Below, piece after piece: positions 12,255 through 36,118 of a DNA stretch of 64,000 nt. The stretch is from contig NZ_CP036299.1 of assembly GCF_007752345.1 (NCBI RefSeq), forward strand, positions 2,681,001-2,745,000, in the 5' to 3' direction. Below the pieces are notes generated by a model that worked only from the letters and a program-made list of their open reading frames with translations, was not told where the DNA came from and did no database searches. Numbering within the stretch: position 1 is the first letter of the stretch; each line of letters opens with the position of its first letter. Made by a program: the position numbers and the translations under genes. This DNA is from Planctopirus ephydatiae. GTDB lineage: Bacteria > Planctomycetota > Planctomycetia > Planctomycetales > Planctomycetaceae.

Positions 12255-12294
12255 CACCCCAGTGGAGTCGAACCACTAACCTACGGTTCCGAAG
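12255..12294. repeat. Left att site: copy of tRNA-Arg 3' half
   Basis: 40 bases identical to 36047-36086 within the tRNA-Arg gene, from the 3' acceptor strand through T-arm, variable loop and anticodon stem/loop. The identity ends at GAAG on the island side. The tRNA 5' half is absent here, so this is the duplicated 3' end left by integration. Confidence 0.92.
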
Positions 12295-12441
12295 TCGAAT
12301 TTTTGGGGTACTGCCAAAAGCTCGAAACTCATTTACCGCAGTAGTTTACAACATTTCGCATTTTTCGCCATACCACTTGATTTGAATTTTTTCACCCCAT
12401 TTTTCCAAGTGAAAACGTGGACTACCACTTTTTGAGTGGTA
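12295..12441. repeat. Island left-end repeat, copy 1
   Basis: It starts TCGAAT directly at the att site and runs through GGGGTACTGCC, GTTTACAACATTTCGC, CCATACCACTTGAT and ACTACCAC (12421-12428), ending in an inverted match AGTGGTA. It is about 90 percent identical to copies 2 and 3. Inverted pairs (CACTTG/CAAGTG and ACTACCACT/AGTGGTA) make it look like a recombinase arm-binding region. Confidence 0.88.
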
Positions 12442-12466
12442 ATGAATTTGGTGGTAAATAATCTAA

Positions 12467-12640
12467 GAGCCTGACAAAAAACCGCATTGCTGATTAATAG
12501 TTTAGGCTGGTTGCCTGATCAGCACGCGATAACAGAGGGCAACGAGTGCCAGTTGGTCCCAGGTGACGTAGGTGGCGGTGTAGGACTCGTCCATCTATTT
12601 GGGTTTGGGAATCGTGGTCATGTTACCGACGGCGTTGTAG
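12467..12640 (-). mobile_element. IS5-family left-end fragment
   Basis: The terminal sequence GAGCCTGACAAAAAACCG at 12467 and the next ~25 bases are shared with the IS at 21437. On the minus strand the end of a transposase is readable (TWDQLALVALCYRVLIRQPA, stop), equivalent to the C-terminus of the other copy. The rest is missing. It is preceded by TAA, as in the other copy. It inserted next to repeat copy 1, at a different point than the IS beside copy 2, so the two insertions were separate events. Confidence 0.7.
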
Positions 12641-12644
12641 TAGT

Positions 12645-12905
12645 CTAACACGAATAAAGATGTGGGTATAGGCGGTGGGGTTTTTGGCGGGCATCGGGGG
12701 TGGTGAACTGCCACCGGACTTTGCTCGCGGTGGCGTTTCGCTCCTGTTTCCACGCCGTGACTTCTGATCGTAAATCTTTAATCGTCGGAATTCTGCGGTT
12801 CAGGCATTGGCGGCTCAGCACTCCCAGTTCGATTTCCGCCACATTCAGCCAACTGCCGTTGCGGGGTGTGAAGTGCAGTTCCAATCTTCGCGATGTGGGA
12901 TACAC
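12645..12905 (-). pseudogene. IS630-family transposase, C-terminal fragment
   Basis: The last ~85 codons of a DDE transposase: LHFTPRNGSWLNVAEIELGV carries the final catalytic Glu region (WLN-AE-E), followed by LSRQCLNRRI, WKQERN and FTTPDARQK, all typical of the IS630 C-terminus. The first two thirds, with the two catalytic Asp residues, are gone and no inverted repeat is seen. It abuts the Gfo/Idh/MocA gene. Confidence 0.8.
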
Positions 12906-12928
12906 CGGAAAGGTGCGTTTGCGGTGGC

Positions 12929-14311
12929 TCAGCCCTCCACGATTTTAAAGCCCTTCCGATAGTCGCGGGCAATGAGCCCCTGGGCCTGTTCGTCGCCGAC
13001 AATGGCTTCGTTCATCGGGTCCCAGGTGATCTTGCGGTTCAACCGAGCCGCGATTCCGGCAAGGTGGCACGTTGAAAGTGCTCGATGGTGACTGAACACG
13101 TCCGAAATGGGTTCTTTCCGATCCCGTGCTGCTTCAAAGAAATTGCGGAAATGGTCCACCAGCGGGCGATTCTTGTAGACTTCCTCCATCGCTCCATTGG
13201 GAAACGGGTTCGACTTGAGTTCTTCGACCGGAGCTCCGGTCAGCTTGCCCCGATTCACAAAGATCCGGCCTTCGGTGCCTTCAAAGAGAATGCCATTGTC
13301 GCCGTCATGGCGGATCTCTATCTCCACTCCGTCATCAAAGGTCGTCCGGATAAGAAACTGTGTGGCTGTGTTGTATCGTGACGGATCGACCGGGTAGCCA
13401 TTTTTGAATTCGACAGGGTGCCGGGCCATAATCGGATCGATGGTCAGAGGACCCGTTTCGGTTTTTCCAAGTCCCCAGGTGGCGATGTCCACATGGTGGG
13501 CTCCCCAGTCGGTCAGTTTTCCTCCTGAGTACTCGTACCACCAGCGAAATTCATAGTGGCAGCGCGACCAGCTTTTTGTCTCACCATTGTTGCCGGCCAG
13601 ATATCGAAACTCCTTCTCCGAAACCGGCCCCTGCCACAGGTTCCAGTCCAGCGATGAAGGAGGAGCGGCCACCGGGATCTGCGGGCTTTCTGGAGCGCCG
13701 CCGATGCTGCATGTGGCTTTCTTCAGCTTTCCCAGTCGCCCAGCGCGAATCAACGCAATGGCCCGGATGAATTGCTCTTCGCTGCGCTGCTGCGTACCAA
13801 TCTGGACAATCCGACCTGTCCTGGTACACACGTCGCAAATCTGCTGCCCTTCCGAAATCGTCACCGTCATCGGCTTTTCGCAGTAGACATCCTTTCCGGC
13901 CAGCATGGCTTCAATCGCAATCTTGGCATGCCAGTGATCTGGTGTGGAAATGTGGACGATGTCGATGTTAGGGTCGTCAAGTATCGCCCGGTAGTCGGCG
14001 TGAACTCCGGGTGCGCTGCCAGTCCATTCCTTCGCGAGTCCCGCTGCCAGTTCGCGTCGAGTCGCGTCAGCATCGCAAACAGAAACGTAGTCGCCGTATT
14101 TGCGAAAATCAGGGGCTGATCCCCACGGGCCATCCACGCCAGTGGCTCTCTGGCACCAACGACTGCCCGTTCCAATCGCTCCGACACGGGGCCGGTCGTT
14201 GGCCGACACGAAACCGCTCGCTCGTCCGCTTCGGTTCAAAAGAACGGCCGCCCCAACGAAGCTCAGCGAAGATTGAAGCAGACTGCGACGGGAAAGTTGA
14301 CTCTTTGACAT
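12929..14311 (-). CDS. Gfo/Idh/MocA family oxidoreductase, Tat-exported
   Basis: 460 residues from ATG 14311; a longer frame reaches 14353 but the shorter start gives MSKSQLSRRSLLQSSL, a clean twin-arginine signal. Next come the NAD(P)-binding Rossmann part (RPRVGAIGTGSRW), the STPDHWHAKIAIEAM block and CEKPMT, the usual Gfo/Idh/MocA catalytic-lysine region. The C-terminal half has WYEYSGGKLTDWGAHHVD, as in exported planctomycete members that act on sugars or inositol. It is convergent with the transposase fragment and divergent from the cytochrome gene at 14814. The substrate is unknown. Confidence 0.9.
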   Translation of the reverse strand: MSKSQLSRRSLLQSSLSFVGAAVLLNRSGRASGFVSANDRPRVGAIGTGSRWCQRATGVDGPWGSAPDFRKYGDYVSVCDADATRRELAAGLAKEWTGSAPGVHADYRAILDDPNIDIVHISTPDHWHAKIAIEAMLAGKDVYCEKPMTVTISEGQQICDVCTRTGRIVQIGTQQRSEEQFIRAIALIRAGRLGKLKKATCSIGGAPESPQIPVAAPPSSLDWNLWQGPVSEKEFRYLAGNNGETKSWSRCHYEFRWWYEYSGGKLTDWGAHHVDIATWGLGKTETGPLTIDPIMARHPVEFKNGYPVDPSRYNTATQFLIRTTFDDGVEIEIRHDGDNGILFEGTEGRIFVNRGKLTGAPVEELKSNPFPNGAMEEVYKNRPLVDHFRNFFEAARDRKEPISDVFSHHRALSTCHLAGIAARLNRKITWDPMNEAIVGDEQAQGLIARDYRKGFKIVEG

Positions 14312-14543
14312 GTGACCGGACTTTTCGTTGACATGGTTTTTGACAATCATCATGGAACGCCGGGTGCGGCAGTTTCACGGTTCTTTGACCCGGCTTGATA
14401 ATTTTGCTGAACGATTCCGCCCCTGATCTAACTCAGGATGTTCTCGCGGTGCCGTCAAGGCAGAATCCCCTGAATCTACGAACGCTCCTGCGCAGTTTCA
14501 TAATCAGTGGACCAATCCCAGGTTCTTCAAAGGGAGGATACTC

Positions 14544-14678
14544 ATGTGGCGATGTATCCTCAGCCGTGTGCTGTTGACAGGACATTGTTCGACAGCCTTC
14601 ACTTGTGAAGAATCGTTACCGGAATGCCTCTCGCTCGCAGCTGACCGGGAAGCGATCCTGAAAGAACTCGCCGGTTGA
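14544..14678 (+). CDS. Possible 44-aa small ORF
   Basis: ATG at 14544 preceded by GGGAGG six bases upstream, one of the best ribosome binding sites in the island. The product MWRCILSRVLLTGHCSTAFT... has a short hydrophobic, signal-like start and then an acidic tail ending ELAG. It resembles no family I know. It could be the start of a secreted protein truncated by rearrangement, or chance. The remainder of the ~500-base divergent gap 14312-14813 shows nothing else. Confidence 0.25.
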   Translation: MWRCILSRVLLTGHCSTAFTCEESLPECLSLAADREAILKELAG

Positions 14679-14813
14679 TAGCCAAAGGGGTGCATGATGA
14701 ATAAGATGCAAGCGAACTGGATTGGGAGCGGTTCCAGGCTCATGCAGAAAGGGAATCCCGGATAGCCCCTCTGTTTTTCCCGCGTTTTTTTCCATTGATG
14801 GAAAGCCGGAGCA

Positions 14814-17183
14814 ATGAGTTCCTATCGCAGAATCAACGCGGACCCACGAGGTTTGCAAACGAATACTGATATTCAGCCGCAATCTGCCCTGTCGACAAGA
14901 ACATTGAGCGCGTCTGTTCCTGGTTCGGTGATGGGCTTGATCGCCACTTTGTTGTGTTCCTCGAACCTGCTTTTTGCTCAAGCCGAAAAGACAGCGACTC
15001 CCATTGTCTCAGACAAAAAGGCCTTCGACGAAACCGTCTCTCCATTCCTGAGTAAGTACTGTGCCGATTGTCACGGCGAGGGCAGCAATGAGTCAGGTGT
15101 CGTCTTGTCCGGCATCAGTTTTGATCTGGCATCCGGCCATGATATCGAGCTTTGGAATACGGTACTCCGGCAACTGCACTTGGAAGAGATGCCACCGACC
15201 GAGAGTGAACAACCCGAGCAGCACGAAAGAGATGCCGTGATGCTCTGGATCAATGCAGAATTGAAAAAATCCGGGAACGTTTCTGATCTCTATACGAAAT
15301 TGGAAAGTCCGAGCTTCGCAAATTATGTGAACCACGAAAAGCTCTTCAGCGGCGAAATCACTGCGGAGCCTTTTTCACCGGCACGGTTGTGGAGAACCAG
15401 CCCTGAAGTTTTTGAGAATGTGAAATCCAAATACGGAGAGGGAGCCAGGGATTTCAGGCAGCCTTTTCCGTTGGAAGATAAAGTTGGTATCAAAGATTAT
15501 GCCAACCTCCTGTTTGCGGATTCGGCGGTTGTAAGTGTATTGATGAGCAATGCGGCTTTTGCTGCAGATGAACTCATCAAGCATTCTCCCATCGCTTCGT
15601 CAGACACACGTCCCAGTGATGACTTGCTTGCTTCGGCCATCAGCGAACATTTCAGGAAGGTGGTCTATCGAGAGCCCCTGAAAGAAGAGATCAGCAACTA
15701 CTCGGAGCTTTTCCGAAAGACAGCCAAAGAAGGCGGCAATGCCGAGGCCATGCGATTGGTCTTGATGGCGGTAATGTTGCACCATGAATCGGTCTACAGA
15801 GTTGAGATCGGTCTTGGCAAAGAAGATTCTCACGGACGTCGGATGTTGTCGGGTACTGAAATGGCATTTGCTATCGCCTATGCGCTGACAGATCGTCCGC
15901 CTGATGAGGTACTGCTTCAGGCGGCAAAAGAGGGGCAGTTGAACAGCAGCACGGATGCGCAGCTACAAATTGCACGCATCCTTCAGGATGACGCGATTGA
16001 CAAACCAAGGATCCTGCGTTTCTTCCAGGAGTTCTTTGGCTACTCCCAGGCCCATAAGGTTTTTAAGGACGAAGATCGCTCGGGGGGATTCGCTTACTAC
16101 GGCGAAAACTATCCCGCGATGTACGAGAAAGACGCGGATTTTTTCGTCATGAACATCCTGGAGAAAGATCAGGATGTTTTCAGGCAATTGCTGACGTCAG
16201 ACGAGTACTACATCATCAACCGAGCGACATTTCGGAACACGGTCTACGATTTTTACAAGAAGAACCAACAGCAACTTGATGCAGGGGAATATCCGGAAGC
16301 CAAACAGAAAGAACTCCTGCAGAGACTGAACCTGAAGGGCTGGCATGAACTGAATGTGAAATACGACCTGCACAACTTCAACAAAGAATTCGATGGCAGT
16401 GTCGCTGCGATAAAGCAGATCGTTGAGGAACAATATAGTTGGATGGACACCAAAGACGAAGACATACTTCTGCATCGCATGCAGGCTCTGTATGCAAAGT
16501 ATCCGATGGTTTACGACCTCAGGGATGATGAGCAGGATTTCTTGTTGCCACAGCCTTACAAGCGCCCGAACCGTGCCGGGATGTTGACTCATCCAGCCTG
16601 GCTGATCGCACATTCATTGAATGACAGCACGGACCCGATTCGGCGAGGAAAATGGGTGAGGGAGCGATTACTGGGAGGCGTGATACCGGACATTCCCATC
16701 ACAGTGGATGCCTCTGTTCCGGAAGACCATACGAAAACGCTCAGAGAAAGGTTGCAAAAGACGGAGAGCGTTGAATGCTGGCGTTGTCACAAGAAGATGA
16801 ATCCCCTGGGATATGCCTTCGAGATCTACGATGACTTCGGACGGCATCGAACGGAGGAAAGTCTGGCCAAAGGAGATACCAAGCCGGTCAATGCCAGAAG
16901 TGAACTGGCAGGCACGGGCGAGCAGAAATTGGATGGCGAATACAAGGATGCTCTGGAACTGATCCACAGACTGGCTGAATCAGATAACGTTCGTCAATGT
17001 ATGATCCGGCATGTGTTTCGGTACTTTATGGGGCGAAACGAAACGCTTAACGATTCAAAAACGCTCATTTCCGCCGATCGGGCCTACCTTGAAAGTGGTG
17101 GCAGTTTTAAGGCACTCTTGACTTCCATACTTTCGTCTGACTCATTTCTTTATCGCAAAACACTTGAACCGACTTCAAGGTAG
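14814..17183 (+). CDS. DUF1592/DUF1588/DUF1585 planctomycete cytochrome protein
   Basis: 789 codons. A hydrophobic segment at about 39-56 ends in FAQAEK, so the first ~38 residues may be extra and translation may start later. A cytochrome domain with CADCH (83-87) is followed by DUF1592 at about 345-475, DUF1588 with a second haem motif CWRCH (656-660) and MNPLGYAFEIYDDFGR, and DUF1585 at about 705-780 (RQCMIRHVFRYFMGR). The DUF1587 part is weak or reshaped. Such proteins are nearly always followed by DUF1552, as here. It is predicted to be a periplasmic dihaem protein; its reaction is unknown. Confidence 0.9.
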   Translation: MSSYRRINADPRGLQTNTDIQPQSALSTRTLSASVPGSVMGLIATLLCSSNLLFAQAEKTATPIVSDKKAFDETVSPFLSKYCADCHGEGSNESGVVLSGISFDLASGHDIELWNTVLRQLHLEEMPPTESEQPEQHERDAVMLWINAELKKSGNVSDLYTKLESPSFANYVNHEKLFSGEITAEPFSPARLWRTSPEVFENVKSKYGEGARDFRQPFPLEDKVGIKDYANLLFADSAVVSVLMSNAAFAADELIKHSPIASSDTRPSDDLLASAISEHFRKVVYREPLKEEISNYSELFRKTAKEGGNAEAMRLVLMAVMLHHESVYRVEIGLGKEDSHGRRMLSGTEMAFAIAYALTDRPPDEVLLQAAKEGQLNSSTDAQLQIARILQDDAIDKPRILRFFQEFFGYSQAHKVFKDEDRSGGFAYYGENYPAMYEKDADFFVMNILEKDQDVFRQLLTSDEYYIINRATFRNTVYDFYKKNQQQLDAGEYPEAKQKELLQRLNLKGWHELNVKYDLHNFNKEFDGSVAAIKQIVEEQYSWMDTKDEDILLHRMQALYAKYPMVYDLRDDEQDFLLPQPYKRPNRAGMLTHPAWLIAHSLNDSTDPIRRGKWVRERLLGGVIPDIPITVDASVPEDHTKTLRERLQKTESVECWRCHKKMNPLGYAFEIYDDFGRHRTEESLAKGDTKPVNARSELAGTGEQKLDGEYKDALELIHRLAESDNVRQCMIRHVFRYFMGRNETLNDSKTLISADRAYLESGGSFKALLTSILSSDSFLYRKTLEPTSR

Positions 17184-17187
17184 CACC

Positions 17188-18573
17188 ATGAACCAAACAC
17201 GACGCAACACGCTCAAGAACCTATCACTGGCTGCGGGATCCTTCCTCTTGTCGCCTTTTCTGCGCCAGGTAGAACTCCAGGCCGCAGGGAATTTGATCGC
17301 GATGCCCAATCGTTTTGTGTTTATTGTGAAATCGAGCGGCATCATTCCCGATGGCATCACGCCTGATGCATTCAAAGGCAAAGATTCGAGCAGCAGTTTA
17401 TTCAGTCAGGATCTGACAAACGTCGCTTTGCCGTCATCAATGCACGCTCTGGAGCCCTTTAAAGATCAACTTTCGATCGTGCAGGGGCTTTCAGGAAAAA
17501 TGTGCCGTGGTGGTCACTCCAGCTGGTTTGGCATGATGGGTGTCTACATGACTGGCGGGGAATTCGATGCAGGCGCGGTGATTAGAGCCACCGCCGATGC
17601 AGAATTGGCCAAACTCAACCCAGCGCCGTTTAATCATTTAGGATTGGCGATCAGAGGGAAGGCGTTGAGCAGTGACTATGGTGGGACCATGTATCCTGGA
17701 ATCAGCGCTGTCGGGCCGGGACAGGAACTTCCATTTCAGGGGTCTCCCGACATTGCCTACGAACAACTGTTTGGCTCTGCCGTTTCAGCCAGTAGCGGAG
17801 CTGAAAAGAGGTTCAAGCTGCAAGGGAATCTTCTTGATTTCATGGTGGATGATATCAGAAAGGTTACGAAGGCGATTCCCTCGTCGGAACATGGCAAGAT
17901 GGACGCCTACCTCAACGCGTTTGAGGAGCTTCAGGTACGTCACAGCAAGTTGTCGAGTATGAAGGAACAGATCGCCGCCAACGCGCCGGGGTACTCTGAC
18001 AAGTTCACTTCGACTGTTGAGGAGGTTCGTCAGGAAGCACAATTTGATTTGGCCACAGCGGCATTGATTGCAGGTCTCACGAACGTCGTCACCATTCGCC
18101 TAGATAACGTGGACATGACCTACAAAAAACTGGGTATCGACGAACACAACCATGGCATCGGGCACAACGAAGGTACTAAGAGCCAGACAGAATATCGTGA
18201 GATCATCCAACGACACCATTCAGAACTTCTGGCGACGATGGCCGGGAAATTGAGGGCGGTTCCTGAGGGCGATGGAGACATGCTGGACAACACCATGATT
18301 ATCTTCCTCTCTGATTCGAGCGATAATCACCATGGAACCGGAATGGAGTGGCCTTATCTGATTGTTGGCGGAGGCGGCGGTAAGCTCAAGCTGCCGGGAC
18401 GTTATCTGCGTTACCCGAAATATGGTGAAAAGGGCTGCCGAACCATCGGCGACTGGTGGACCACTTTGCTGAATGCCTTTGGCAACCCCATCAAGTATTA
18501 TGGCAACGAGGATCTTGTGCTGAAACAAAATGGCTGCTCACATGCGGGACCACTTGAGGAGCTTTTGGTTTGA
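17188..18573 (+). CDS. DUF1552 family protein, Tat-exported
   Basis: 461 residues from ATG 17188, five bases after the previous stop. AAGG overlapping that stop is the likely ribosome binding site; an upstream start at 17164 would lie inside the preceding gene. The start MNQTRRNTLKNLSLAAGSFL is twin-arginine-like. The body has GHSSWFGMMGVY, the long helix with VDDIRKVTKAI, and near the end IIFLSDSSDNHHG and YLIVGGGGGKL, the DUF1552 pattern related in fold to DUF1501. It forms an operon with the dihaem protein. Confidence 0.9.
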   Translation: MNQTRRNTLKNLSLAAGSFLLSPFLRQVELQAAGNLIAMPNRFVFIVKSSGIIPDGITPDAFKGKDSSSSLFSQDLTNVALPSSMHALEPFKDQLSIVQGLSGKMCRGGHSSWFGMMGVYMTGGEFDAGAVIRATADAELAKLNPAPFNHLGLAIRGKALSSDYGGTMYPGISAVGPGQELPFQGSPDIAYEQLFGSAVSASSGAEKRFKLQGNLLDFMVDDIRKVTKAIPSSEHGKMDAYLNAFEELQVRHSKLSSMKEQIAANAPGYSDKFTSTVEEVRQEAQFDLATAALIAGLTNVVTIRLDNVDMTYKKLGIDEHNHGIGHNEGTKSQTEYREIIQRHHSELLATMAGKLRAVPEGDGDMLDNTMIIFLSDSSDNHHGTGMEWPYLIVGGGGGKLKLPGRYLRYPKYGEKGCRTIGDWWTTLLNAFGNPIKYYGNEDLVLKQNGCSHAGPLEELLV

Positions 18574-20427: not shown

Positions 20428-21150
20428 TCAAAACTGCCGATAGCGTTTTCGGCCCATGCGGCTCCACCACCTTCTGATGGCGGCCACTGCGAACTCTGCT
20501 GTGTCATGGCTGATGCCGACCGAAACTCCTGCTTCGTTGTGTGTGATATCGTAAACGCCATGTGGCACAGCCTTGCCGAGTTCTTTGTCGGGAATGTCAT
20601 GCGTTGTGACCTTTCGAGGAGCCCCTTTCATGCGGTACCTTTTCCCGGAATTCTTCATGTTTCCCAGCGGTTCCTTCTTCTTTGTATCGACCGAGATCAC
20701 GGGCTGACTGGTCTTCTGAAATGCCTTCACTCGAGAGGCAATATGCCGGAACTGTGCATCGCGATCGGGATGCTGTTTCCCTTAGATCGTCTTGCGGTTG
20801 GCCTGAAGACGGTATCCCTGCGAACGCAACAACTGCCCGACTTTGGTACTGCCGACTTGAAATCCTTGCTGTCGAAGCTCCTTGGCCAGTTGACGTGTCC
20901 CCTGACAGATCCAGCGTAACGGAACGATTGGGTCTCCCCGCGTTTCGGCTTCTACGAGCGACTCAATCGCATAAATCAATTCGGGTTGCAGGCTCTCGCA
21001 ACTCGGTCGCCCCGCTCCGGGACGACGCTGCCGATCTGCGGAAGCGGCGCTCGGATCATCAAGCTCCTGAATTCCATTACGGATCGTCCGATCAGACAAG
21101 CCCGTTGCTTCGGCAACAGCGGCGATTCCGCCGCGACCGAGCGACCTTGC
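20428..21150 (-). pseudogene. ISAzo13-family (Rhodopirellula-type) transposase remnant
   Basis: One minus-strand frame reads GRGGIAAVAEATGLSDRTIR ... RWICQGTRQLAKEL ... LLRSQGYRLQANRKT, stop, then GKQHPDRDAQFRHIASRV ... SQPVISVDTKKKEPLGNM ... VPHGVYDITHNEAGVSVG ... RRWWSRMGRKRYRQ. This is the ISAzo13 transposase interrupted by a single in-frame TAA (about 20783), where homologues have Glu or Gln. Both ends are missing: the N-terminus is cut at the border of repeat copy 2 and the C-terminus 10 bases from the esterase stop, so the last catalytic residue is lost. Confidence 0.85.
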
Positions 21151-21153
21151 TTT

Positions 21154-21305
21154 AGTCGAATCTGGGGGGTACTGCCAAAGGCTCGAAACTCATTTAGTAC
21201 AGTAGTTTACAACATTTCGCGTTTTTCGCCATACCACTTGATTTGAATTTTTTCACCCCATTTTTCCAAGTGAAAACGTGGACTACCACTTTTTGAGTGG
21301 TAGTG
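21154..21305. repeat. Island left-end repeat, copy 2
   Basis: It starts AGTCGAATCTGGGGGGTACTG and is near-identical to copy 1, including ACTACCAC (21282-21289) with its inverted match GTGGTAGT (21297-21304). The tRNA-derived 40 bases are lost; only AGTCGAAT remains. The sequence switches straight from the ISAzo13 remnant to this repeat, which marks the seam between island segments I and II. Confidence 0.88.
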
Positions 21306-21436
21306 AAATGGATGGGGTGAAAGCGAGTATTTGGAACGGAATTCTTGCCCAGCTGACATTCTGATTTTTGCCGAGGTGGTTAAGCCACAACAGGGCACGG
21401 GGAAAGCTGCAACTGTGCTAGTAGGGCTTCACCTAA

Positions 21437-22391: not shown

Positions 22392-22558
22392 TAAAATTCC
22401 ACTTCCCCGTGACAGCAAGGACAGCCAGTAGAACCAAGCGTTGAAATTGCCACAGTTGTGGGAGATGCCGCCAACAGAATCCCGAGTAAAGCTGTCTTGC
22501 CGGTTTCAATCCGGGTACCATCGTGGCGAAAGCAAACGGAAAATAGGGCTGACTGAAG

Positions 22559-24579: not shown

Positions 24580-24819
24580 GCAGTTGGATCTGTCTGGACA
24601 AATCGGTCTGTTTCGCGTCCCGTCACAGCATCACGTCCATCGATTGAATTGACGATCCCTCCCGACTTGGCATTGCGCAAAGCGCAACTCACTGGTCGTA
24701 GTTTTGCGAATGACATCCGCAGGCGGCGCAAGTCATTCTGCAACGATCAAGTGGGGATGATGACTCATCGAGTCGATAAACCCCCTGATCTCAATGTGAT
24801 CTCAACGGGAGTGATTCAA

Positions 24820-26511: not shown

Positions 26512-26650
26512 ATCAAACAATGGAAGAAAGCAGTCATCAGACTTCTGGACACCAGTTAATTCAAAAACTGCCGTCGTGTGAATCAGTCGCTGATCGAGAG
26601 AAGCCACTGGACTGAACCACCACTGCATTATGAGTTCATAAGGAGTCGGA

Positions 26651-27700: not shown

Positions 27701-27836
27701 TCAGATAAGGTTGGACGAGATGATCGTCGCGACTCCATACTCGTGCCGACTACCATAGCGAGAAATCGAAACAACCAGAGACTCAATAAGTTAAATAGCC
27801 CGGTTCTACCGGATTCTGACATCTGAGAGGTGCGAC

Positions 27837-30566
27837 ATGACAACTGAGCAAAAGCGACTTGATGAGACCCGCGAAAAGAAGATTCCCTGGAAAAAATGGG
27901 GGCCGTACCTCTCAGAGCGCCAATGGGGAACAGTCCGCGAAGACTACAGCGAGAACGGCGATGCCTGGAACTTCTTCACCCATGACCATGCCCGCTCACG
28001 GGCGTATCGCTGGGGGGAAGACGGCCTGGCTGGGATCTCTGATGATCAACAGCAACTCTGTTTTGCGTTGGCTCTCTGGAATGGTAAAGACGCAATTTTG
28101 AAGGAACGACTCTTTGGCCTGACCAACAGCGAAGGAAACCACGGTGAAGATGTCAAAGAGTACTACTTTTATCTCGACAGCACACCGACTCACTCATACA
28201 TGAAGTATCTCTACAAGTACCCGCAGGGAGCATTCCCCTATGCGGATCTCGTCGAGACGAATCGAAAACGAACTCGTAACGATATGGAGTACGAACTCCT
28301 CGACACGGGCATCTTTGACAGTGACCGTTACTTCGATGTCTTTGTCGAGTACGCCAAAGCGGGGCCGGAAGACATTCTTGTGAAGATCACCGCGATTAAC
28401 CGAGGTCCCGACGCTGCTGAACTGCATATTCTGCCAACGCTATGGTTCCGTAACGACTGGTCCAAGTGGATCGCGGAGTCGAACCGAGCCACCCAGAAGC
28501 CGATGCTCAAGCAGATCAAATCTGCAGCAGGCACAAGTATTGTCGCGGTATCGCAATCGGAACTTGGTGAATTCACATTCTCCTGTGAAGGCGAGACGTC
28601 CCTCCTCTTTACTGAGAATGAAACCAACCATGAGCGGTTATTCCCCGGGCAAGGTCAGAAGAACGAGAGCCCTCATGTCAAAGATGGCATCAACGACTGC
28701 GTAGTCCACGGCCAAACGAATGCGATCAATCCCGAAAAGCAAGGCACAAAAGTCGCTGCTCATTACCGGGCGACTCTTGGTGCAGGTCAGACTCAAATCA
28801 TTCGGCTGCGACTCTCAAGAGGGAAAGCGGATCCGAATGGAAAATCGTTCGGCAAACCCTTCGATCAAGTCTTTGCGGAAAGACTGCGTGAAGCCGACGA
28901 GTTTTACAAATCGATTACGCCTCCTTCTGCGAGTGCCGATGCGGCGAACGTCATGCGTCAGGCGCTGGCGGGCATGCTCTGGAGCAAGCAGTTCTTCTTT
29001 TTCGACGGTGACAACTGGCTGGATGAGCACAACTCCAACCCACTGCATTCCGGTTATCGCAGTTCCCGGAACTCGGAGTGGTTCCACATGCTCAACAAGG
29101 ACATCATCTCGATGCCCGATAAATGGGAGTATCCGTGGTATGCCGCCTGGGATCTGGCCTTCCATACGTTACCGCTGGCGATCGTCGATCCCGACTTCGC
29201 CAAAGAGCAGATGCGGCTGATGCTCAAAGGGGTCTACCTGCATCCCAGTGGTCAACTCCCGGCTTACGAGTGGAACTTCAGCGACGTGAATCCGCCGGTT
29301 CATGCCTGGGCGACACTCTTTCTGCATCGCAGTGCGCAGGCTCTTGGCGGCGAGACCGACATCGACTTCCTTCGTGGGGCTTTCAATAAGCTGATGTTGA
29401 ATTTCACATGGTGGGCCAACCGCAAGGACCGCTTCGGCAAGAACGTCTTTGAGGGAGGGTTTCTCGGTCTTGACAATATCGGTGTTTTTGACCGCAGCGC
29501 CCCTCTCCCGACTGGCGGTTACCTGGAGCAGGCAGACGGCACAGCCTGGATGGCGCTGTTCTGCCAGAACATGGTGGAAATGGCCGCCGAACTCACGGTA
29601 CATGACCCAATTTACGAAGACATGGTGCTGAAGTTTGCCGAACAGTTCTACTACATCGCTGCAGCCATGAACCGTCCGGGAAATGACGGCATGTGGGACG
29701 AGGAGGATGGTTTCTACTATGACCTGCTGAGGCTCCCCGACGGCAGCGCCACGCGACTCAAGGTCAGATCCCTGGTCGGCCTCCTGCCCCTGTGTGCCAC
29801 GACAGTCATCGAGCCCTGGCAGCGGATGCACCTTCCACGGGCAATGACTGGTCTTCTGGAACGCCTGCGGCGCATTCCGGAACTGGGGCACGCAATGCAC
29901 CCCACTGGACCGGGCCATATGGGGGTGAACGACCGCGGCCTTCTCGCGCTGCTCAACCCGGAACGACTCCGTCGCGTTCTCACGAGGATGCTCGATGAGA
30001 ACGAATTCCTGGGGCCGCACGGAATCCGCTCGATCTCGAAGTTTCATGAGCAGCATCCCTATGTCTTCCACGCACAAGGCCAGGAGTACCGGGTAGACTA
30101 TCTGCCCGCCGAATCGAATACAGGTATGTTCGGCGGTAACTCCAACTGGCGCGGCCCGGTCTGGATGCCTGTGAACGCCATGATCATCCGGGCTCTTCTG
30201 CAATACTACTTGTACTACGGAGATAACTTTAAGATCGAATGCCCCACGGGCTCCGGAAAGATGATGAACCTGTTCGAGGTAAGCAAGGAACTCTCCGACC
30301 GGCTCACAAGCACCTTCTTGCATGATGAGCATGGCCGCCGTCCGGTATTCGGCGGTACAGAAAAGTTTCAGTCCGATCCCCACTGGCGGGAGTACCTCCA
30401 GTTCTTTGAATACTTCCATGCAGACAATGGGGCCGGTCTGGGTGCCAGTCATCAAACAGGCTGGACAGGGTTGGTTGCCAAGTTCATCCAGCTGTACGGA
30501 TTTATGGACGCTAAGCAGGTCCTCGCGGGGGGGAAGATGGCGGCTTTCCAGAAGGAGAATAAGTGA
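27837..30566 (+). CDS. GH63/MGH1-like glucosidase
   Basis: 909 residues, no signal peptide, so cytoplasmic. The N-terminal half is a beta-rich domain (WGPYLSERQWGTVREDYSEN). From about 350 an (alpha/alpha)6 toroid follows, with NKDIISMPDKWEYPWYAAWD (acid Asp candidate), WNFSDVNPPVHAWA, WDEEDGFYYD and, near 760, NSNWRGPVWMPVNAMI. This layout is that of the MGH1-like glycosyl hydrolases related to GH63, active on alpha-glucosides such as glucosylglycerate or mannosylglycerate. GAGAGG precedes the start. It could release glucose for the adjacent dehydrogenase. Confidence 0.88.
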   Translation: MTTEQKRLDETREKKIPWKKWGPYLSERQWGTVREDYSENGDAWNFFTHDHARSRAYRWGEDGLAGISDDQQQLCFALALWNGKDAILKERLFGLTNSEGNHGEDVKEYYFYLDSTPTHSYMKYLYKYPQGAFPYADLVETNRKRTRNDMEYELLDTGIFDSDRYFDVFVEYAKAGPEDILVKITAINRGPDAAELHILPTLWFRNDWSKWIAESNRATQKPMLKQIKSAAGTSIVAVSQSELGEFTFSCEGETSLLFTENETNHERLFPGQGQKNESPHVKDGINDCVVHGQTNAINPEKQGTKVAAHYRATLGAGQTQIIRLRLSRGKADPNGKSFGKPFDQVFAERLREADEFYKSITPPSASADAANVMRQALAGMLWSKQFFFFDGDNWLDEHNSNPLHSGYRSSRNSEWFHMLNKDIISMPDKWEYPWYAAWDLAFHTLPLAIVDPDFAKEQMRLMLKGVYLHPSGQLPAYEWNFSDVNPPVHAWATLFLHRSAQALGGETDIDFLRGAFNKLMLNFTWWANRKDRFGKNVFEGGFLGLDNIGVFDRSAPLPTGGYLEQADGTAWMALFCQNMVEMAAELTVHDPIYEDMVLKFAEQFYYIAAAMNRPGNDGMWDEEDGFYYDLLRLPDGSATRLKVRSLVGLLPLCATTVIEPWQRMHLPRAMTGLLERLRRIPELGHAMHPTGPGHMGVNDRGLLALLNPERLRRVLTRMLDENEFLGPHGIRSISKFHEQHPYVFHAQGQEYRVDYLPAESNTGMFGGNSNWRGPVWMPVNAMIIRALLQYYLYYGDNFKIECPTGSGKMMNLFEVSKELSDRLTSTFLHDEHGRRPVFGGTEKFQSDPHWREYLQFFEYFHADNGAGLGASHQTGWTGLVAKFIQLYGFMDAKQVLAGGKMAAFQKENK

Positions 30567-30719
30567 CGATAGCGTGGACGAACGGCATTGCTGCGTGACT
30601 GATGGACTGGCCGAAAGCACAATCATGAGTACCCGAATCACCAGCCGCCAAATTCGTACTGCGGGCGGAGCAGCGATCTTTAGAGCGCCGTTGATCAAAG
30701 CGAAAATGGAGACGGCGGA

Positions 30720-31913
30720 ATGACCCCTGTTCTTGCAAACGAAGCAGATCTGTACTTTGAACGAGGCGGGCCGATTCAACGATTGGGTGAACGACTCGCC
30801 ACTAGCAAAGGTTTAGGCCACTCGCTTCGCCTGCGTATTCTGGGTTTTCTGGCACTCACGTGGTTTCCGTTACTCATCTTTGCCCTGCTGGAAGGCCGCG
30901 CATTGGGCGCGTCACCACAAGAATCCTTCTTGCTGGACTTTGGCACTTATGCCCGTTTCTTTATTGCGGTGCCACTCCTGCTCGTGGCGGAACTTTTCGT
31001 CGGGCCAAGGCTCAGATCAGCAGGCATACAGTTTGTGCAAGGTGGCTTTATCGAGCCTGAAGATTACCCTGCCTTTGATCGGGCGATCGCACGCGTGGCC
31101 AGATGGCGTGAGTCTGCCTGGGCGGAGTTGGTCATCGTGGGAATCGCCCTGATCGGTGCGTGGGGATTCACGGCTGAGACGGTGTACGGAGAAGGATTGG
31201 CGACCTGGCGTTCGACGATGCGGACAACAAACACCGGTGTAGCTTTGTCAATAACGGGAATCTGGTATCGCCTGATCGCTTTGCCCATCCTGCAGTTTTT
31301 CTGGTACCGCTGGCTCTGGCGGCTATTTGTCTGGGCCAGCTTTCTCTGGACAGTTTCGCGGCTCAATCTCAACCTGGTCGCCTCGCATGCTGATCAGGCT
31401 GGTGGTTTAGGTTTCCTGGGTGTGGCACATTCTTGTTTTGGCATTTTTGCATTTGGCCTGACTTCTGTTTTAAGTGCAGAAGCGGCATTTCTGATGGTCT
31501 TTCACGGCGCTGACATCCAGACGTTTCAGGTGCAGTACATCGCAATCCTGATAGTTGTCGAATTCATCTTCCTCGGCCCTTTGCTCATATTTATTCCGAT
31601 TCTGATGCGAACGCGTCTGGCGTGGTTGCATGATTATGCTCTGCTCGTGACCAGGTATAACAGGGCGTTTGAGGCGAAGTGGATCAAAGGGGAGCCCTTT
31701 CCAGATGATTCACTTCTGGGCAGCCCCGACATTCAGTCGCTGGCAGATCTGGGCAATAGCTTCGCATTTGTTCGAGGAATGAAGCCTGTCCCTTTCAGCC
31801 GGATGGTGGTCATCCAATTAGCGGTTGTGACGAGTCTTCCCTGCTTGCCTTTGATTCTCCTTGTTATGCCAGTCAGCAAAATCCTCGAACTACTGACTAA
31901 AGCTGTGTTTTAG
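30720..31913 (+). CDS. Multipass membrane protein of unknown function
   Basis: 397 residues with about seven or eight hydrophobic segments (roughly 40-60, 85-105, 138-158, 175-195, 200-216, 232-258, 277-300, 365-390) and a short cytoplasmic start. I do not recognise a transporter or enzyme motif. Conserved-looking charged loops include HADQAGGLGFLG and LLVTRYNRAFEAKW. Such proteins are often annotated only as hypothetical in stress or glycan islands. Lying between two glycosidase genes, a transport or sensing role is possible but not shown. Confidence 0.75.
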   Translation: MTPVLANEADLYFERGGPIQRLGERLATSKGLGHSLRLRILGFLALTWFPLLIFALLEGRALGASPQESFLLDFGTYARFFIAVPLLLVAELFVGPRLRSAGIQFVQGGFIEPEDYPAFDRAIARVARWRESAWAELVIVGIALIGAWGFTAETVYGEGLATWRSTMRTTNTGVALSITGIWYRLIALPILQFFWYRWLWRLFVWASFLWTVSRLNLNLVASHADQAGGLGFLGVAHSCFGIFAFGLTSVLSAEAAFLMVFHGADIQTFQVQYIAILIVVEFIFLGPLLIFIPILMRTRLAWLHDYALLVTRYNRAFEAKWIKGEPFPDDSLLGSPDIQSLADLGNSFAFVRGMKPVPFSRMVVIQLAVVTSLPCLPLILLVMPVSKILELLTKAVF

Positions 31914-31964
31914 GATCTGAGTTACTTCCTCTGATGTTCATTCAATACAAAATGAGAGACAACT

Positions 31965-33446
31965 ATGAGCAATCCCCGTTATCCGTTGCTCTATCAGATT
32001 AATACGCGAGTTTGGTTGACGGAGCTTTCCCTATTGCTTGGCCGTTCTGCCACTCTGGACGACATTCCGGATGCCGAACTGGATCGCCTTGCCGAATTGG
32101 GCTTCGATTGGATCTGGTTCCTCAGTGTTTGGCAAACCGGTCCCGGTGCCCAGCAAGTGTCGCGCAGTAATCCTGAGTGGCGGCACGAGTTTCAGGAGAC
32201 ACTGCCAGATCTACGCGAGGAAGACATTGCTGGTTCGGGCTTTGCGATTACCGGCTACACAGTCCATCAGAACCTTGGCGGAGATGCCGCTCTCGCCCGG
32301 TTGCGCGCCCGGCTTGATCATCGTGGTTTGAAGCTGATGCTCGACTTTGTCCCCAATCATATGGGACTCGACCATCCGTGGATCAAAGATCACCCCGACT
32401 ATTTCATTCAGGGCACGGAGCATGACCTGGCTACCGCTCCGCAGAACTTCACCCGTGTAAAGCATCAGGGACGTGATCTGATCTTTGCTTACGGGCGCGA
32501 CCCGTATTTCTCTGGCTGGCCCGACACGCTGCAACTCAACTACGCCAATCCCGCCACGCAAGAAGCCATGATCGGCGAACTGTTGAAGATCTCCGGGCAA
32601 TGTGACGGTGTCCGCTGTGACATGGCTATGCTCGTGCTGCCAGACGTTTTTGAACGAACATGGGGGCATCCAGCACCTCTGTTCTGGCCAGCGGCAACCC
32701 AGCGTGTTCGTGAGCAGACCCCTGGTTTTCTCTTTATGGCCGAAGTCTACTGGGATATGGAATGGACACTCCAGCAACAAGGTTTTGATTACGCCTACGA
32801 CAAACGACTCTACGACCGCTTGCGAGAGGGCCATGCGAGGCCAGTGCGTGAGCATTTCCATGCGGGTCTCGATTACCAGGACAAGCTCGCCCGCTTCTTA
32901 GAAAACCACGACGAACCACGGGCTGCCGCCGCGTTTTCTTCAGATGTGCACCAGGCGGCAGCAGTGATCACGTTTCTGTCCCCTGGCCTGCGATTCTTCC
33001 ACATGGGCCAGTTCGAGGGACGCAAAAAACGAATCTCGCCTCACCTCGTGCGAGGACCGCAAGAGCCAGTCGATGAAAATGTGAAGCTGTTCTACAACCG
33101 CCTCCTGGCAGTGCTTCGTCAACCGACTGTTCTTGACGGCCAGTGGCAGTTGCTGGAATGCACCCCGGGCTGGGAAGGAAATTGGACAAACGACTGCTTT
33201 GTCGTCTTCGCTTGGCGAGGTTCGCAGGGAGACATTCTTGTGGTTGCAGTCAACTATGCGCCGAATCAAAGTCAATGTCATGTGCAACTGCCATTTGCAG
33301 AACTCCCCAGCAAGAAGTGGCAGTTGCAGGATCGGCTGAGCGGGGCTAGTTACGACTGGAATGGCGATGATCTGCAGGGCAAAGGACTGTATCTGGATCT
33401 TGCACCCTGGCAGGCGTCCATTCTCTCATTGGAGAGGTGTGATTGA
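31965..33446 (+). CDS. GH13 alpha-amylase-family protein
   Basis: 493 residues, no signal peptide. (beta/alpha)8 barrel motifs in order: LMLDFVPNHMG (125-134), nucleophile Asp219 in GVRCDMAM, acid/base Glu260 in FLFMAEVYWDMEW and the HD pair at 315-316 in FLENHDEPR. All three carboxylates are present, so activity is expected. The C-terminal beta domain ends at WQASILSLE. It starts 51 bases after the membrane gene. GH13 covers amylases, glucosidases and sucrose or maltose phosphorylases; substrate cannot be set from sequence alone. Confidence 0.9.
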   Translation: MSNPRYPLLYQINTRVWLTELSLLLGRSATLDDIPDAELDRLAELGFDWIWFLSVWQTGPGAQQVSRSNPEWRHEFQETLPDLREEDIAGSGFAITGYTVHQNLGGDAALARLRARLDHRGLKLMLDFVPNHMGLDHPWIKDHPDYFIQGTEHDLATAPQNFTRVKHQGRDLIFAYGRDPYFSGWPDTLQLNYANPATQEAMIGELLKISGQCDGVRCDMAMLVLPDVFERTWGHPAPLFWPAATQRVREQTPGFLFMAEVYWDMEWTLQQQGFDYAYDKRLYDRLREGHARPVREHFHAGLDYQDKLARFLENHDEPRAAAAFSSDVHQAAAVITFLSPGLRFFHMGQFEGRKKRISPHLVRGPQEPVDENVKLFYNRLLAVLRQPTVLDGQWQLLECTPGWEGNWTNDCFVVFAWRGSQGDILVVAVNYAPNQSQCHVQLPFAELPSKKWQLQDRLSGASYDWNGDDLQGKGLYLDLAPWQASILSLERCD

Positions 33447-33674
33447 GCTCTGCAACGTGATTCGGCAGTAATTATATAAAAAGTCACAATCATGATACAT
33501 GACAAATGGGTCTTCGGTAGCATAACCTGACTATAACGCCGACTATCGGCTTCGGCCCGGAGATGATGCGTCTCTATCGGAATGTGTTTTAGTACTACAG
33601 TTCCATTTTATTTGCTGGGAATCCTCGGGCTTTGTAGTGGCATATCCTGGCGACAAGTTGGTGGTAACGTCCCT
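33447..33674. other. Intergenic at end of segment II
   Basis: No gene recognised after the GH13 stop. Together with the repeat and the 33835-34106 stretch this makes about 660 bases without an assignable gene. Confidence 0.4.
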
Positions 33675-33834
33675 TCGGTTCCGTAGTCGAATCTATGGGG
33701 TACTGCCGAAAGCTTGAAACTCATTTACGGTAGTTGTTTACAACATTTCGCATTTTTCGCCATACCACTTGATTCGAATTTGTTCATCCCATTTTTCCAA
33801 GTGAAAACGTGGACTACCACTTTTTAACGGGTAG
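33675..33834. repeat. Island left-end repeat, copy 3
   Basis: It begins TCGGTTCCGTAGTCGAAT, which keeps a 12-base remnant of the tRNA-derived att (compare ACGGTTCCGAAGTCGAAT at copy 1), then follows the other copies with about 88-90 percent identity through ACTACCAC (33813-33820). The inverted partner is altered (ACGGGTAGT). It marks the seam between segments II and III. Confidence 0.87.
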
Positions 33835-34106
33835 TGGATCTGGGGGTGATGGACATTCCCAGCAATCGTTGAAAAGTCCCTTTCAGTCAGTTCTGTTAAG
33901 CTTCCCTGGGGAGGAGGCAGCTGATTCCCACGCCCCGACTGGCAGCTATGATACGGGATTGCTTCCGAGGATGATTTGAGACAACTGTGCTTCCTGGAGT
34001 TGCAAGATCCCGAACAAAAAAGCTCCAGATCGACTCGACCACGACGAAAGCGCGTCCATCGCTTTGACAGTCCGCTGCCAGGCCTGGGAAAAATGTTGAG
34101 GAGTTG

Positions 34107-34400
34107 ATGAGAGTTTATGGAGTGAAATTGCATTTAGGGACACTCCATCGCTGGCGGACTAGAGGAGTTCGCGGGAGATTTTTGAATGCCTGGAGATGTG
34201 GGGGACGCTGGATGTCGTCTCTCGTCGATGTGCGGATGATGATGGAACCTTGTGTTCCCGAATCTCCAAACAATGTCATGCCTAATTTGGATATGTCGCG
34301 CGTCGACAGAGAGTTTGACCGTCAAAAACGATGGCGGGTTCTCTATGTCCAGAGTGAGCTTGTCAATCGATTTCAGTTTCCACCCGAAAAGACAATCTAA
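34107..34400 (+). CDS. Small HTH protein, DUF1580-like (putative excisionase)
   Basis: 97 residues from ATG 34107; a TTG lies directly before it and GAGGAG is three to four bases upstream. The core LHLGTLHRWRTRGVRGRFLN followed by GGRWMSSLVDV follows the layout of DUF1580 (a helix with T-HRW, the RGVRG turn, then a GGRR-T strand), a small DNA-binding family of planctomycete mobile elements. The C-terminal part is unrecognised. It precedes a strong terminator and faces the integrase gene, so an excisionase role is attractive but unproven. Confidence 0.5.
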   Translation: MRVYGVKLHLGTLHRWRTRGVRGRFLNAWRCGGRWMSSLVDVRMMMEPCVPESPNNVMPNLDMSRVDREFDRQKRWRVLYVQSELVNRFQFPPEKTI

Positions 34401-34530
34401 AGGCATCGGTCTAATGTTTCCTGCCATGGAGTGGCAGAGAGCCCGTTAGGCCGAATCGGCCTGGAACCTGGAGGGTTTACCGTAAGGGGCTCGTGTCGAT
34501 CACGGGAGATGCACTTCCTAGGTTATGAAT

Positions 34531-34580
34531 ACAGGGAACCGGATCTGCTTGAGTCTGCAGATCCGGTTCCCTGTGTTTTT
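34531..34580 (+). terminator. Strong intrinsic terminator
   Basis: A perfect 18-bp stem (34531-34548 with 34557-34574, from ACAGGGAACC to GGTTCCCTGT), an 8-base loop and then GTTTTTT. The T run is on the plus strand, so it ends plus transcripts before they read into the convergent integrase gene. On the minus strand there is no T run, though the hairpin itself may still protect the integrase mRNA. Confidence 0.88.
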
Positions 34581-34683
34581 TAGGTCTTTGACAGTGTGCG
34601 AAGTTAAGCTTTGCACCAAGATGTTGCGATCGCGATCAGGCTGCTCGGCAGAATGATAGCCACAAGCTTGACGGGGGAACTCC

Positions 34684-35922
34684 TTAACCGATTTCGGCAG
34701 CGACTTGCATGGCCAGCTTGAGATTGCGTTCGGCATAGACTTGAGTCACATCTGCTGTTGCATGACCTAAAGCGACCTGAGCCGCTTCCAGTCCATACCG
34801 GCGACGGACCTCTGTGCCGTGTGTATGCCGAATTTGGTAGGGAAACCAGTATTGGACGGCATGACCAGCCTTCTGCGCCTTGCGAATTCCATAGGTGATG
34901 CAGCGGCGATACGCATTGACGTCATAGCAGGGTTGTAGTTGCCTCACCTTGGGAGCCGCTTGACGCTTGGCTTTGCGCCGGATCCGAGCCTTCAGTTCAC
35001 AGGGAAAGATCTTTGTTTTGCGATCGGGATTGCGGTGCACTGCCCGCTGCTCATTGCGCCACGCTTCGGCTTCTGCGGGAGTGAAGCAGTAGTCTTTGGG
35101 ATCGCGATTTAGGAAGGGAGCCAGAACGGCCTGCGCCTGAGGGCCTAACGGGACATGCTTCTCAAAGCCGAGATGTTCAGTTTTGTGATGTTCGGGGGTG
35201 TAAAGCCAAATGGCCCCCGAACGATCGATGTCACAGGGACGCATATGGAGCACTTCGGAAGGCCGCATGCCGGTCAGCAGTTGGAGCTGGCAGATGGCGG
35301 CCACAGGAGGTGGGAGGAAGGGGAGTGTCAGTTGGATTTGTGAGATATCGACAGGACGCACGGGTCGCGACTCGTGGGCCTCAGATCGTCCACGTCTCAG
35401 GCCTGACACGGCACTAAGACCATGCAGAATGGTCGGAGAGACGAGCTCTTCCGAGACGGCCCACTTGAAGACGCGTTTGATACGACCCATCCGGCGATTG
35501 ATTTCCGTGCGGCTGAGTTTGTGAACATCAATCATGTGCTGCCGAACAGCCTTGAACGACTTGGGGCCAAAATCCTGAGTGAGAGTGCTTCCGTAAAGTG
35601 CATGGAGTGGTCGAAGAGCATGGTTCATGCTTTGGGGTTCACGGGACCTCGGACCATAGTAAGTCGTGGCAAATTCGAGATAGGCCAGGATCATCTCACT
35701 GATGGTGAGATCTTGAGTGGGAGTTGACTGACCTGAGTTAGCCTGCGCCACTTGCAACTGATGCTGTTGTGACGCCAGTTCAGCGAGGAGGCGAGAGTAC
35801 CGCTGGAGTGTTTCGGGGTCACCGTAAGGCCCCAGATAAAGATCCTTGCCTTGGACCCGAACACGGGCACAACCTGAAGGTTTGTGGAGCGAAAGTTTTG
35901 GAATTCTGGGCGTCTTGGGCAT
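34684..35922 (-). CDS. Tyrosine recombinase (island integrase)
   Basis: 412 residues from ATG 35922, with GAGG nearby; a longer frame to 35940 adds six residues. The N-terminus KLSLHKPSGCARVRVQGKDL is the planctomycete integrase pattern; a SAM-like core-binding domain spans about 70-160. Catalytic residues: Arg220 (TGMRPSEVL), Lys247 (HHKTEH), Arg365 (YQIRHTHG, where Tyr replaces the usual first His of HxxR), His387 (LGH) and nucleophile Tyr396 (TQVYAE). All are present, so it should be active. It lies 123 bases from the tRNA-Arg att site and is transcribed away from it. Confidence 0.92.
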   Translation of the reverse strand: MPKTPRIPKLSLHKPSGCARVRVQGKDLYLGPYGDPETLQRYSRLLAELASQQHQLQVAQANSGQSTPTQDLTISEMILAYLEFATTYYGPRSREPQSMNHALRPLHALYGSTLTQDFGPKSFKAVRQHMIDVHKLSRTEINRRMGRIKRVFKWAVSEELVSPTILHGLSAVSGLRRGRSEAHESRPVRPVDISQIQLTLPFLPPPVAAICQLQLLTGMRPSEVLHMRPCDIDRSGAIWLYTPEHHKTEHLGFEKHVPLGPQAQAVLAPFLNRDPKDYCFTPAEAEAWRNEQRAVHRNPDRKTKIFPCELKARIRRKAKRQAAPKVRQLQPCYDVNAYRRCITYGIRKAQKAGHAVQYWFPYQIRHTHGTEVRRRYGLEAAQVALGHATADVTQVYAERNLKLAMQVAAEIG

Positions 35923-35941
35923 AGTGCGATCCTCGAACATT

Positions 35942-35974
35942 TTCGAAAAGTGGTAGTACTACCACTTTTTCGAA
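35942..35974. promoter_or_regulatory. Palindrome upstream of integrase (operator or arm site)
   Basis: The core GTGGTAGTACTACCAC (35950-35965) is a perfect 16-bp palindrome extended by TTCGAAAA / TTTTTCGAA arms. Its half-site ACTACCAC is the same octamer that lies at the far end of each left-end repeat. It sits 20 bases upstream of the integrase start and about 75 bases from the att core. It could be an integrase arm site that also autoregulates the gene. Confidence 0.65.
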
Positions 35975-36044
35975 GAGTTTCGAGCCGCACTGCCCAACGC
36001 AGGCAGGTATGCTAACTACAGCATTCGGCAGGACTTATGGAAAG

Positions 36045-36118
36045 TGCACCCCAGTGGAGTCGAACCACTAACCTACGGTTCCGAAGACCGTTGCTCTATC
36101 CAATTGAGCTAGGGGTGC
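36045..36118 (-). tRNA. tRNA-Arg (anticodon TCG)
   Basis: A 74-base cloverleaf: acceptor GCACCCC/GGGGTGC with discriminator A, D-arm GCTC/GAGC, anticodon stem ACGGT/ACCGT with loop CTTCGGA (anticodon TCG, reads CGA), and T-arm AGTGG-TTCGACT-CCACT. CCA is not encoded. The 3' half serves as the right att site, so the present 3' end was supplied by the island and keeps the gene functional. Confidence 0.96.

Follow-up and report, generated by a model that had tools for sequence, protein, structure and literature searches.

A 23.8-kb region of the Planctopirus ephydatiae genome, bracketed by a 40-bp repeat, reads as a composite genomic island of a known kind at tRNA-Arg(UCG), with one integrase and with the left and right attachment sites, attL and attR, at its outer ends. 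The stretch analyzed, hereafter the window, is 64,000 nt long and corresponds to bases 2,681,001-2,745,000 of the complete 5.21-Mb genome, which we label G000. A left-end repeat (LE) occurs three times in the island. The island's unusual part is an inner joint at which a short core stands bare of any tRNA half, which points to core-to-core addition of integrase-less units; that the island grew in this manner, from a founder unit carrying the integrase, is in our judgment about an even bet. The features that define the island are listed here in window coordinates.

12255..12294, plus strand: attL, displaced tRNA-Arg(TCG) 3' half, reaching to the final anticodon-loop base (exact copy of 36047-36086)
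12295..12455, plus strand: LE1, putative left attachment arm, ACCACTT at ~12372 and ~12424 (repeat and site comparison)
21141..21316, plus strand: LE2, degenerate core CGACCTTGCTTTAG at its left edge (repeat and core comparison)
33672..33686, plus strand: 15-bp core of LE3, equal to tRNA-Arg(ACG), two bases off the resident tRNA (tRNA comparison)
33687..33847, plus strand: LE3, third putative left arm (repeat comparison)
34104..34400, plus strand: DUF1580 gene without its native N-terminus, candidate excisionase or recombination directionality factor (PF07618; full-length in the congeners G001 and G002)
34684..35940, minus strand: tyrosine integrase, intact by alignment (PF00589, phrog_1, alignment)
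35941..36043, plus strand: right arm with palindrome AAAAGTGGTAGTACTACCACTTTT at 35946-35969 (sequence)
36044..36118, minus strand: tRNA-Arg(TCG), the target, with the attR copy at 36047-36086 (ARAGORN)

The outer ends carry a tRNA gene, its displaced 3' fragment as the end direct repeat, and an adjoining integrase, as in islands that tyrosine integrases insert at tRNA genes. The tRNA-Arg(tcg) gene is the sole tRNA that ARAGORN called in the window, and its 3' half (36047-36086) recurs exactly, over 40 bp, at 12255-12294, a spacing of 23,792 bp; the initial annotation, made from the letters alone, had described this direct repeat as bounding ~24 kb, and it does. Identity between attL and the tRNA ends after TCCGAAG, which by our reading of the stem is the 7-nt anticodon loop on the plus strand. 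The integrase had also been called intact-looking, and this judgment holds, as the protein matches PF00589 and phrog_1, and residues R226, K253, R371, H393, and Y402, which we assign as catalytic by motif, are invariant in 14 aligned integrases, its own included. Matches to NCBIfam models lay far below cut-off, with XerC the best.

The LE family, 176 nt in length, occupies 12280-12455, 21141-21316, and 33672-33847, always in the same orientation, as repeated element ends do in a tandem array, and copies 2 and 3 are 88% and 89% identical to the first. These three are the only matches in the whole genome at E <= 0.001 (E 1.7e-87 to 6.6e-62), which confirms far beyond chance the ~150-bp recurring end reported earlier; all of them lie inside the island, and the genome-wide scatter that could have undone that claim is not seen. 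The start points once given as 21154 and 33675 do not stand, both being internal to the repeat: likeness of LE2 to the other copies begins at ~TAGTCGAAT, and likeness of LE3 takes in the 15-bp core at 33672-33686, while LE1 starts where the att copy ends. Two of 59 genomes (own included) contain an LE, our own and the congener G002, and the three congeners examined (G001, G002, and G003) have 0, 1, and 0 copies, respectively. None has the three-LE block, and the same 24-kb order is thus not shared by all relatives. No LE of the window kind was found within 62 kb left of the G001 integrase, and a search of viral contigs with the LE pattern gave 0 matches.

We best read the LE as the left attachment arm of the integrase. 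ACCACTT is present in each copy at ~92 and ~144 bases past the core start, in a layout like that of the arm-type sites of phage-type integrases, and the second occurrence is part of ACTACCACTTTT (12421, 21282, and 33813), which is common to the LEs and the integrase side; the stretch between integrase and tRNA also carries the palindrome AAAAGTGGTAGTACTACCACTTTT. For eight att-paired elements (one of which, L016, has a 25-bp att), we compared the longest word shared by the integrase side and the far end with the words found at random-place control positions. Sharing was in excess in four of the eight, namely the window (3/285 controls as long, all three overlapping LE2), G4 (0/290), L016 (0/277), and L021 (0/233), and showed no excess over these controls in G52, G31, L022, and L024. 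Over ~150 bp the LEs are 90-94% alike, and recent duplication is disfavored because the copies diverge by 6-10%.

At the inner joints, the sequence before the LE differs from that at the outer end. The 15 bases before LE3, CCTTCGGTTCCGTAG, equal tRNA-Arg(ACG) and have two mismatches to the resident tRNA, which flank the supposed crossover, and nothing recognizable as a tRNA 3' half lies upstream of this core. The LE2 core is degenerate; it may be a copy of some other tRNA, although its best match among 108 distinct tRNA sequences was weak and off the boundary. The initial annotation had three elements entering one att site, two of them later stripped of att, and the ACG-type core of LE3, the degenerate core of LE2, and the missing tRNA half upstream of LE3 all speak against that account.

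Bare cores also occur elsewhere. A search with the core pattern CCTWCGGTTCCGWAG gave 24 exact matches across 8 genomes, compared with 1 for the reversed control. Twelve belong to tRNA genes, of which one has an altered 5' end and another is truncated by the end of its contig, and six to a tRNA 3' half whose 5' side adjoins other sequence, so that 18 have the full 3' half; the remaining six (LE3, G001:1350123, G003:C208:7536, G028:C4:254440, and G028:C17:17753 and 41698) have no tRNA sequence on either side. Addition of G028:C17:8253, which has one mismatch, gives seven core-only sites, including sites in three other genomes. The tRNA base A that precedes the core is absent at all seven, and the 28 bases before the core resemble tRNA no better than shuffles do (155-396 of 500 as good). 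It is unlikely that point mutations gradually wore away the tRNA half, because end sequences within families are still 84-94% alike and these upstream 28 bases show no tRNA likeness.

Contig C17 of G028 may represent a second system of this type. Next to tRNA-Arg(acg), which lies here at 88985-89058, stands a different tyrosine integrase (PF00589; integrase and tRNA together at 87.9-89.1 kb), and as a tblastn query this integrase found no other match in 21 sequences tested, the window included. Core-headed ends stand in one orientation at 8253, 17753, and 41698. The right arm of this integrase carries TTCTCTGACA repeats, and a repeat of the TTCTCTGACA type recurs 143-146 bases past the core at 8253, at 41698, and at the core-only site G001:1350123, so that two of the three ends on C17 have the arm repeat of their own integrase; 17753 and G028:C4:254440 form a separate end family (86% over 171 bp). 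Judging by these comparisons, the layout of several same-orientation, core-headed ends with one integrase at tRNA-Arg has two examples. A broader proposal is that Planctomycetota islands grow in a cassette-like way, large integrase-less units (an arm plus a 15-bp anticodon-stem-loop core) being added core-to-core beside one phage-type integrase to give integron-like multi-gene arrays, a layout common to two unrelated integrases (window and G028:C17) with an arm site 141-146 bp from the core. We consider this doubtful, and slightly more so given the possible common ancestry of some core-only sites.

Joints between tandem elements are found in relatives. On G002 contig 291, the contig ends in a right-arm remnant, a tRNA half, and an LE; in L022, a second, partial integrase match lies right behind the far att copy; and near 521.9 kb of G059:C1, a tRNA half and an end with TAGTACC sites come after an integrase fragment (520928-521731). 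Together with the outer attL and attR and the LE as an element end, these joints bear out the earlier view of a composite tRNA island with one integrase. A full att copy stands between units in G002:C291 and L022, and in the window no tRNA-Arg(TCG) 3' half is present at LE2 or LE3. The G001 integrase is 99% identical to that of the window, yet lies beside tRNA-Arg(ccg), and the integrase therefore moves between tRNA-Arg genes; on G002 contig 452, a 93% identical integrase neighbors a copy of tRNA-Arg(tcg) whose 5' acceptor strand is altered. G001 and G002 share ~8 kb of element sequence left of the integrase module (in pieces, 64-80% identity) that gave no match to the window. On G002 contig 405, the orthologous tRNA and right flank are 96.6% identical over 7 kb, the match ends at window base 36040, and the 551 bp available past that point contain no right arm; because the left flank does not match that of the window, this contig does not represent a clean empty site. 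In G000, G001, and G002, a right-arm-like remnant adjoins tRNA-Arg(acg) with no integrase match there, perhaps an old, lost insertion of the family.

How, then, might the island have arisen? In the account we favor, the integrase beside the tRNA would recombine in the anticodon loop, the element supplying its own tRNA 3' half (attR) and the old half being displaced to the far end (attL). Each LE would be the attachment arm of one unit, and the founder would be the 2.4-kb integrase unit, LE3-DUF1580-int-right arm. Cargo units devoid of an integrase would have joined to the left of this founder by site-specific recombination at the short core, so that the displaced tRNA half would remain only on the outermost unit and a bare core would mark each inner joint. 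We infer the identity of the founder and the order and mode of unit addition. Several points weigh against the proposal. The case consists of one good joint in the window, as the LE2 core is degenerate and only one of the two inner joints shows a bare core, plus several other sites that are not all independent: G028:C17:41698, G028:C4:254440, and G003:C208:7536 have IS-like (insertion sequence-like) DNA 270-280 bp past the core, 68-73% alike, and may descend from one arrangement. No arm site was recognized at G003:C208:7536 or in the 17753/C4 family, which are presumed to be attachment ends, and no tRNA was found in the 40 kb around G028:C4:254440. The core search demanded a 15-mer and so covered no shorter cores, and the 25-bp att copy of L016 is intermediate. 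Core-to-core addition does not explain the source of the units' right ends, the tandem joints with a full tRNA half in relatives mean that ordinary accretion occurs too, and both integration and excision are predicted from sequence.

The strongest competitor is classical tandem accretion, in which three complete elements entered tRNA-Arg in turn and the two older ones later lost their integrase, right arm, and tRNA half through deletions. We regard it as a tenable if less probable history: composite islands of this sort are common (PMC7563491, PMC3146451), the relatives have tandem joints, and the IS or its remnant, which stands 183-292 bp inside LE1 and LE2, could drive deletions. Two deletions would be needed, however, both ending at or near the left edge of a core; LE3 is ACG-type on both sides of the supposed crossover despite the UCG target; and other core-only sites, some perhaps of shared ancestry, show the same cut. 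Core-to-core stacking seems a better, if unproven, fit to the joints than insertion followed by random deletion.

Homologous recombination between LEs of different islands, for example one once at tRNA-Arg(ACG), could instead have shuffled the cargo, the integrase having made the outer ends only. In its favor, the LEs are ~150 bp long and 90-94% alike, right-arm-like remnants do stand beside tRNA-Arg(ACG) in G000, G001, and G002, and segment 1 of the cargo has a 98.8% identical counterpart elsewhere in the genome; such exchange would account for the placing of a core-only end, but not for its origin, and its crossover would not fall at the core edge, which makes it unlikely in our view. That the LE is a dispersed repeat unrelated to integration, such as an IS end, a miniature inverted-repeat transposable element (MITE), or a regulatory element, is highly improbable. 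No gene is assigned to the LE and IS sequences lie near LE1 and LE2, but the whole-genome search placed 3/3 matches in the island, the one further copy (G002) again abuts a tRNA-Arg half, and the LE site is common to the integrase side.

The integrase belongs to a widespread family with varied tRNA targets. A relative is present in 43 of 59 genomes (own included), and family members adjoin tRNA-Arg, -Val, -Pro, -Phe, -Ala, -Met, and -Ile genes; four loci in viral contigs matched, and a search of plasmids with the integrase gave no match. We scanned 36 regions for att pairs, 34 of them distinct (one was scanned in each orientation, and G28 and L005 refer to a single record). Exact pairs of 40-45 bp were found in eight distinct regions (window, G59b as an inverted copy, G4, G52, G31, L021, L022, and L024), L016 has one of 25 bp, G47 and L199 gave weak 17- and 12-bp matches, and the remaining regions had no att pair within the available flanking DNA. 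The scanned elements range from ~2.5 kb (L021) to ~40 kb (G4). In G059:C1 887306-899114 (L183), two facing integrase genes with equal match scores lie ~9 kb apart as an inverted pair, each beside a tRNA-Pro 3' half. A row of 35 tRNA genes, one called SeC, stands near a truncated relative of the integrase in G003:C18 (L136) 1735-7811, a tRNA array possibly carried on a mobile element, and G000 itself has tRNA clusters near 1.556, 2.314, and 1.306 Mb.

Mobilization of the island by the surviving integrase is possible. Tyrosine recombinases require that the overlaps of partner sites match. The 7-nt overlap is TCCGAAG in both attL and attR, TCCGTAG (one difference) in LE3, and GCTTTAG (several differences) in LE2. 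Only the outermost pair therefore matches, and the block, if excised, should leave whole, with attL and attR presumably the only sites now able to recombine. The small DUF1580 protein may be the excisionase of this family. In the window protein, other residues stand in place of ~19 at the N-terminus of the G001 protein, and with this loss of the native N-terminus, excision may be impaired. Of 35 regions, with one record counted twice, 11 have a DUF1580-like motif no more than 4 kb from the integrase; five further occurrences lie elsewhere in the regions, and most of the 35 are without DUF1580 by the strict motif. Minus-strand open reading frames (ORFs) at 33738-34133 and 34134-34427 were rejected as genes, having no family match; the conserved reading here is the plus-strand DUF1580 frame. 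No paper naming DUF1580 was found by whole-word match in the open-licence library searched.

The cargo falls into two segments, each preceded by an LE and by IS sequence.

12463..12563, no strand given: insertion sequence remnant, family of 21433-22394 (88% over 101 nt)
12907..18569, no strand given: segment 1 cargo (another copy in the own genome, 98.8% identical)
12929-14353, minus strand: MocA-type oxidoreductase, segment 1 (family search)
14814-17183, plus strand: DUF1588/1592 protein, segment 1 (family search)
17164-18573, plus strand: DUF1552 protein, segment 1 (family search)
18636..20417, plus strand: SASA-type esterase gene, segment 1 (PF03629)
21433..22394, no strand given: insertion sequence with partial transposase ORF at 21464-21865 on the minus strand (PF01609 below cut-off; 78% to a G001 copy)
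22559..33446, plus strand: segment 2 cargo (family searches)

The second copy of segment 1 (12907-18569) lies ~300 kb away at G000:C1:3005530-3011192, and because that copy stays alike to genome G035 for ~150 bp further, the island copy looks derived. Segment 2 encodes a histidine kinase, a response regulator, CoA-disulfide-reductase-like, glucose-dehydrogenase-like, MGH1/GH63-like, and alpha-amylase-like proteins, and a 397-residue protein without a family. Cargo bases 13001-33000 had some match in 149/149 genomes, mostly to one or two genes among the matches listed, in a search that scored two candidate places per genome and cannot show absence; in G001 and G002, the matches listed cover the IS only. 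Conjugation and relaxase genes were absent among the 16 island ORFs scanned against Pfam (10 + 6), some of which were also compared with PHROGs.

Further features stand out nearby or in relatives. Directly left of attL (window 9311-11765) are a serine recombinase and two small companion genes (phrog_11806, phrog_95, and phrog_14161), which form another mobile module, and 36 kb left of attL (G000:C1:2657321-2657364) is a right-arm remnant without a tRNA, its outer neighbor as in the G002:C291 remnant. Upstream of the tandem joint in G002:C291 (L076), ORFs at 573-2731 resemble by eye Cas2 and a Cas4-Cas1 fusion and are candidates for these proteins. In G001:C1, a 9-kb insertion (~1396771-1405815) separates the DUF1580 gene from the integrase, and by eye it starts with a tRNA-like 3' end and finishes in a transposase-like frame; it is perhaps a nested element.

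To our knowledge, the uptake of accessory genes by planctomycete genomes has been little described, and among the matches listed from the open-licence library searched, no title or opening of an abstract dealt with the island or its integrase family in planctomycetes. An integrase family that is specific for tRNA genes and has clear arms, a core, and a candidate excisionase makes one route of uptake testable, and if the bare-core joints are real, islands can grow by adding integrase-less units and not only by stacking whole elements.

Integron cassette arrays consist of integrase-less units in one orientation with a single integrase at one end and a short core at a joint. The island resembles them in its same-orientation integrase-less units, its one end integrase, and the short core at a joint; unlike integron cassettes, its units are 9-12 kb and its integrase is phage-type with arm sites. 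Composite staphylococcal cassette chromosome (SCC) elements that include pseudo-SCC units likewise have recombinase-less units bounded by short repeats, and differ in using serine recombinases and a protein-gene target. The ssrA islands of Dehalococcoides are a close parallel, with 15 of 31 islands lacking an integration module and with 20-bp repeats; as in the present island, several units stand in a row at one RNA gene with short repeats, and unlike it, they use a serine recombinase and a tmRNA target, and the joint repeat is that of the resident gene (PMC3146451). Another close parallel is offered by the streptococcal composite islands of integrative conjugative elements (ICEs), integrative mobilizable elements (IMEs), and cis-mobilizable elements (CIMEs), in which integrase-less segments are likewise stacked beside one integrase-bearing element at one target gene, carry metabolic cargo, and may move as a unit (PMC7563491). 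CIMEs keep their att sites (PMC7563491), whereas in the present island segment 1 lies between a full att and a degenerate core, segment 2 between a degenerate and an ACG-type core, and the inner joints have no att derived from the resident tRNA, their cores being either degenerate or, over 15 bp, that of another tRNA; the absence of conjugation genes among the 16 ORFs scanned with Pfam is a further difference. Finally, the tandem tDNA arrays of Islander share with this island the tRNA target, the displaced fragment, and the anticodon-centered crossover class, and by the Islander rule, the present array would count as one island (PMC4383910).

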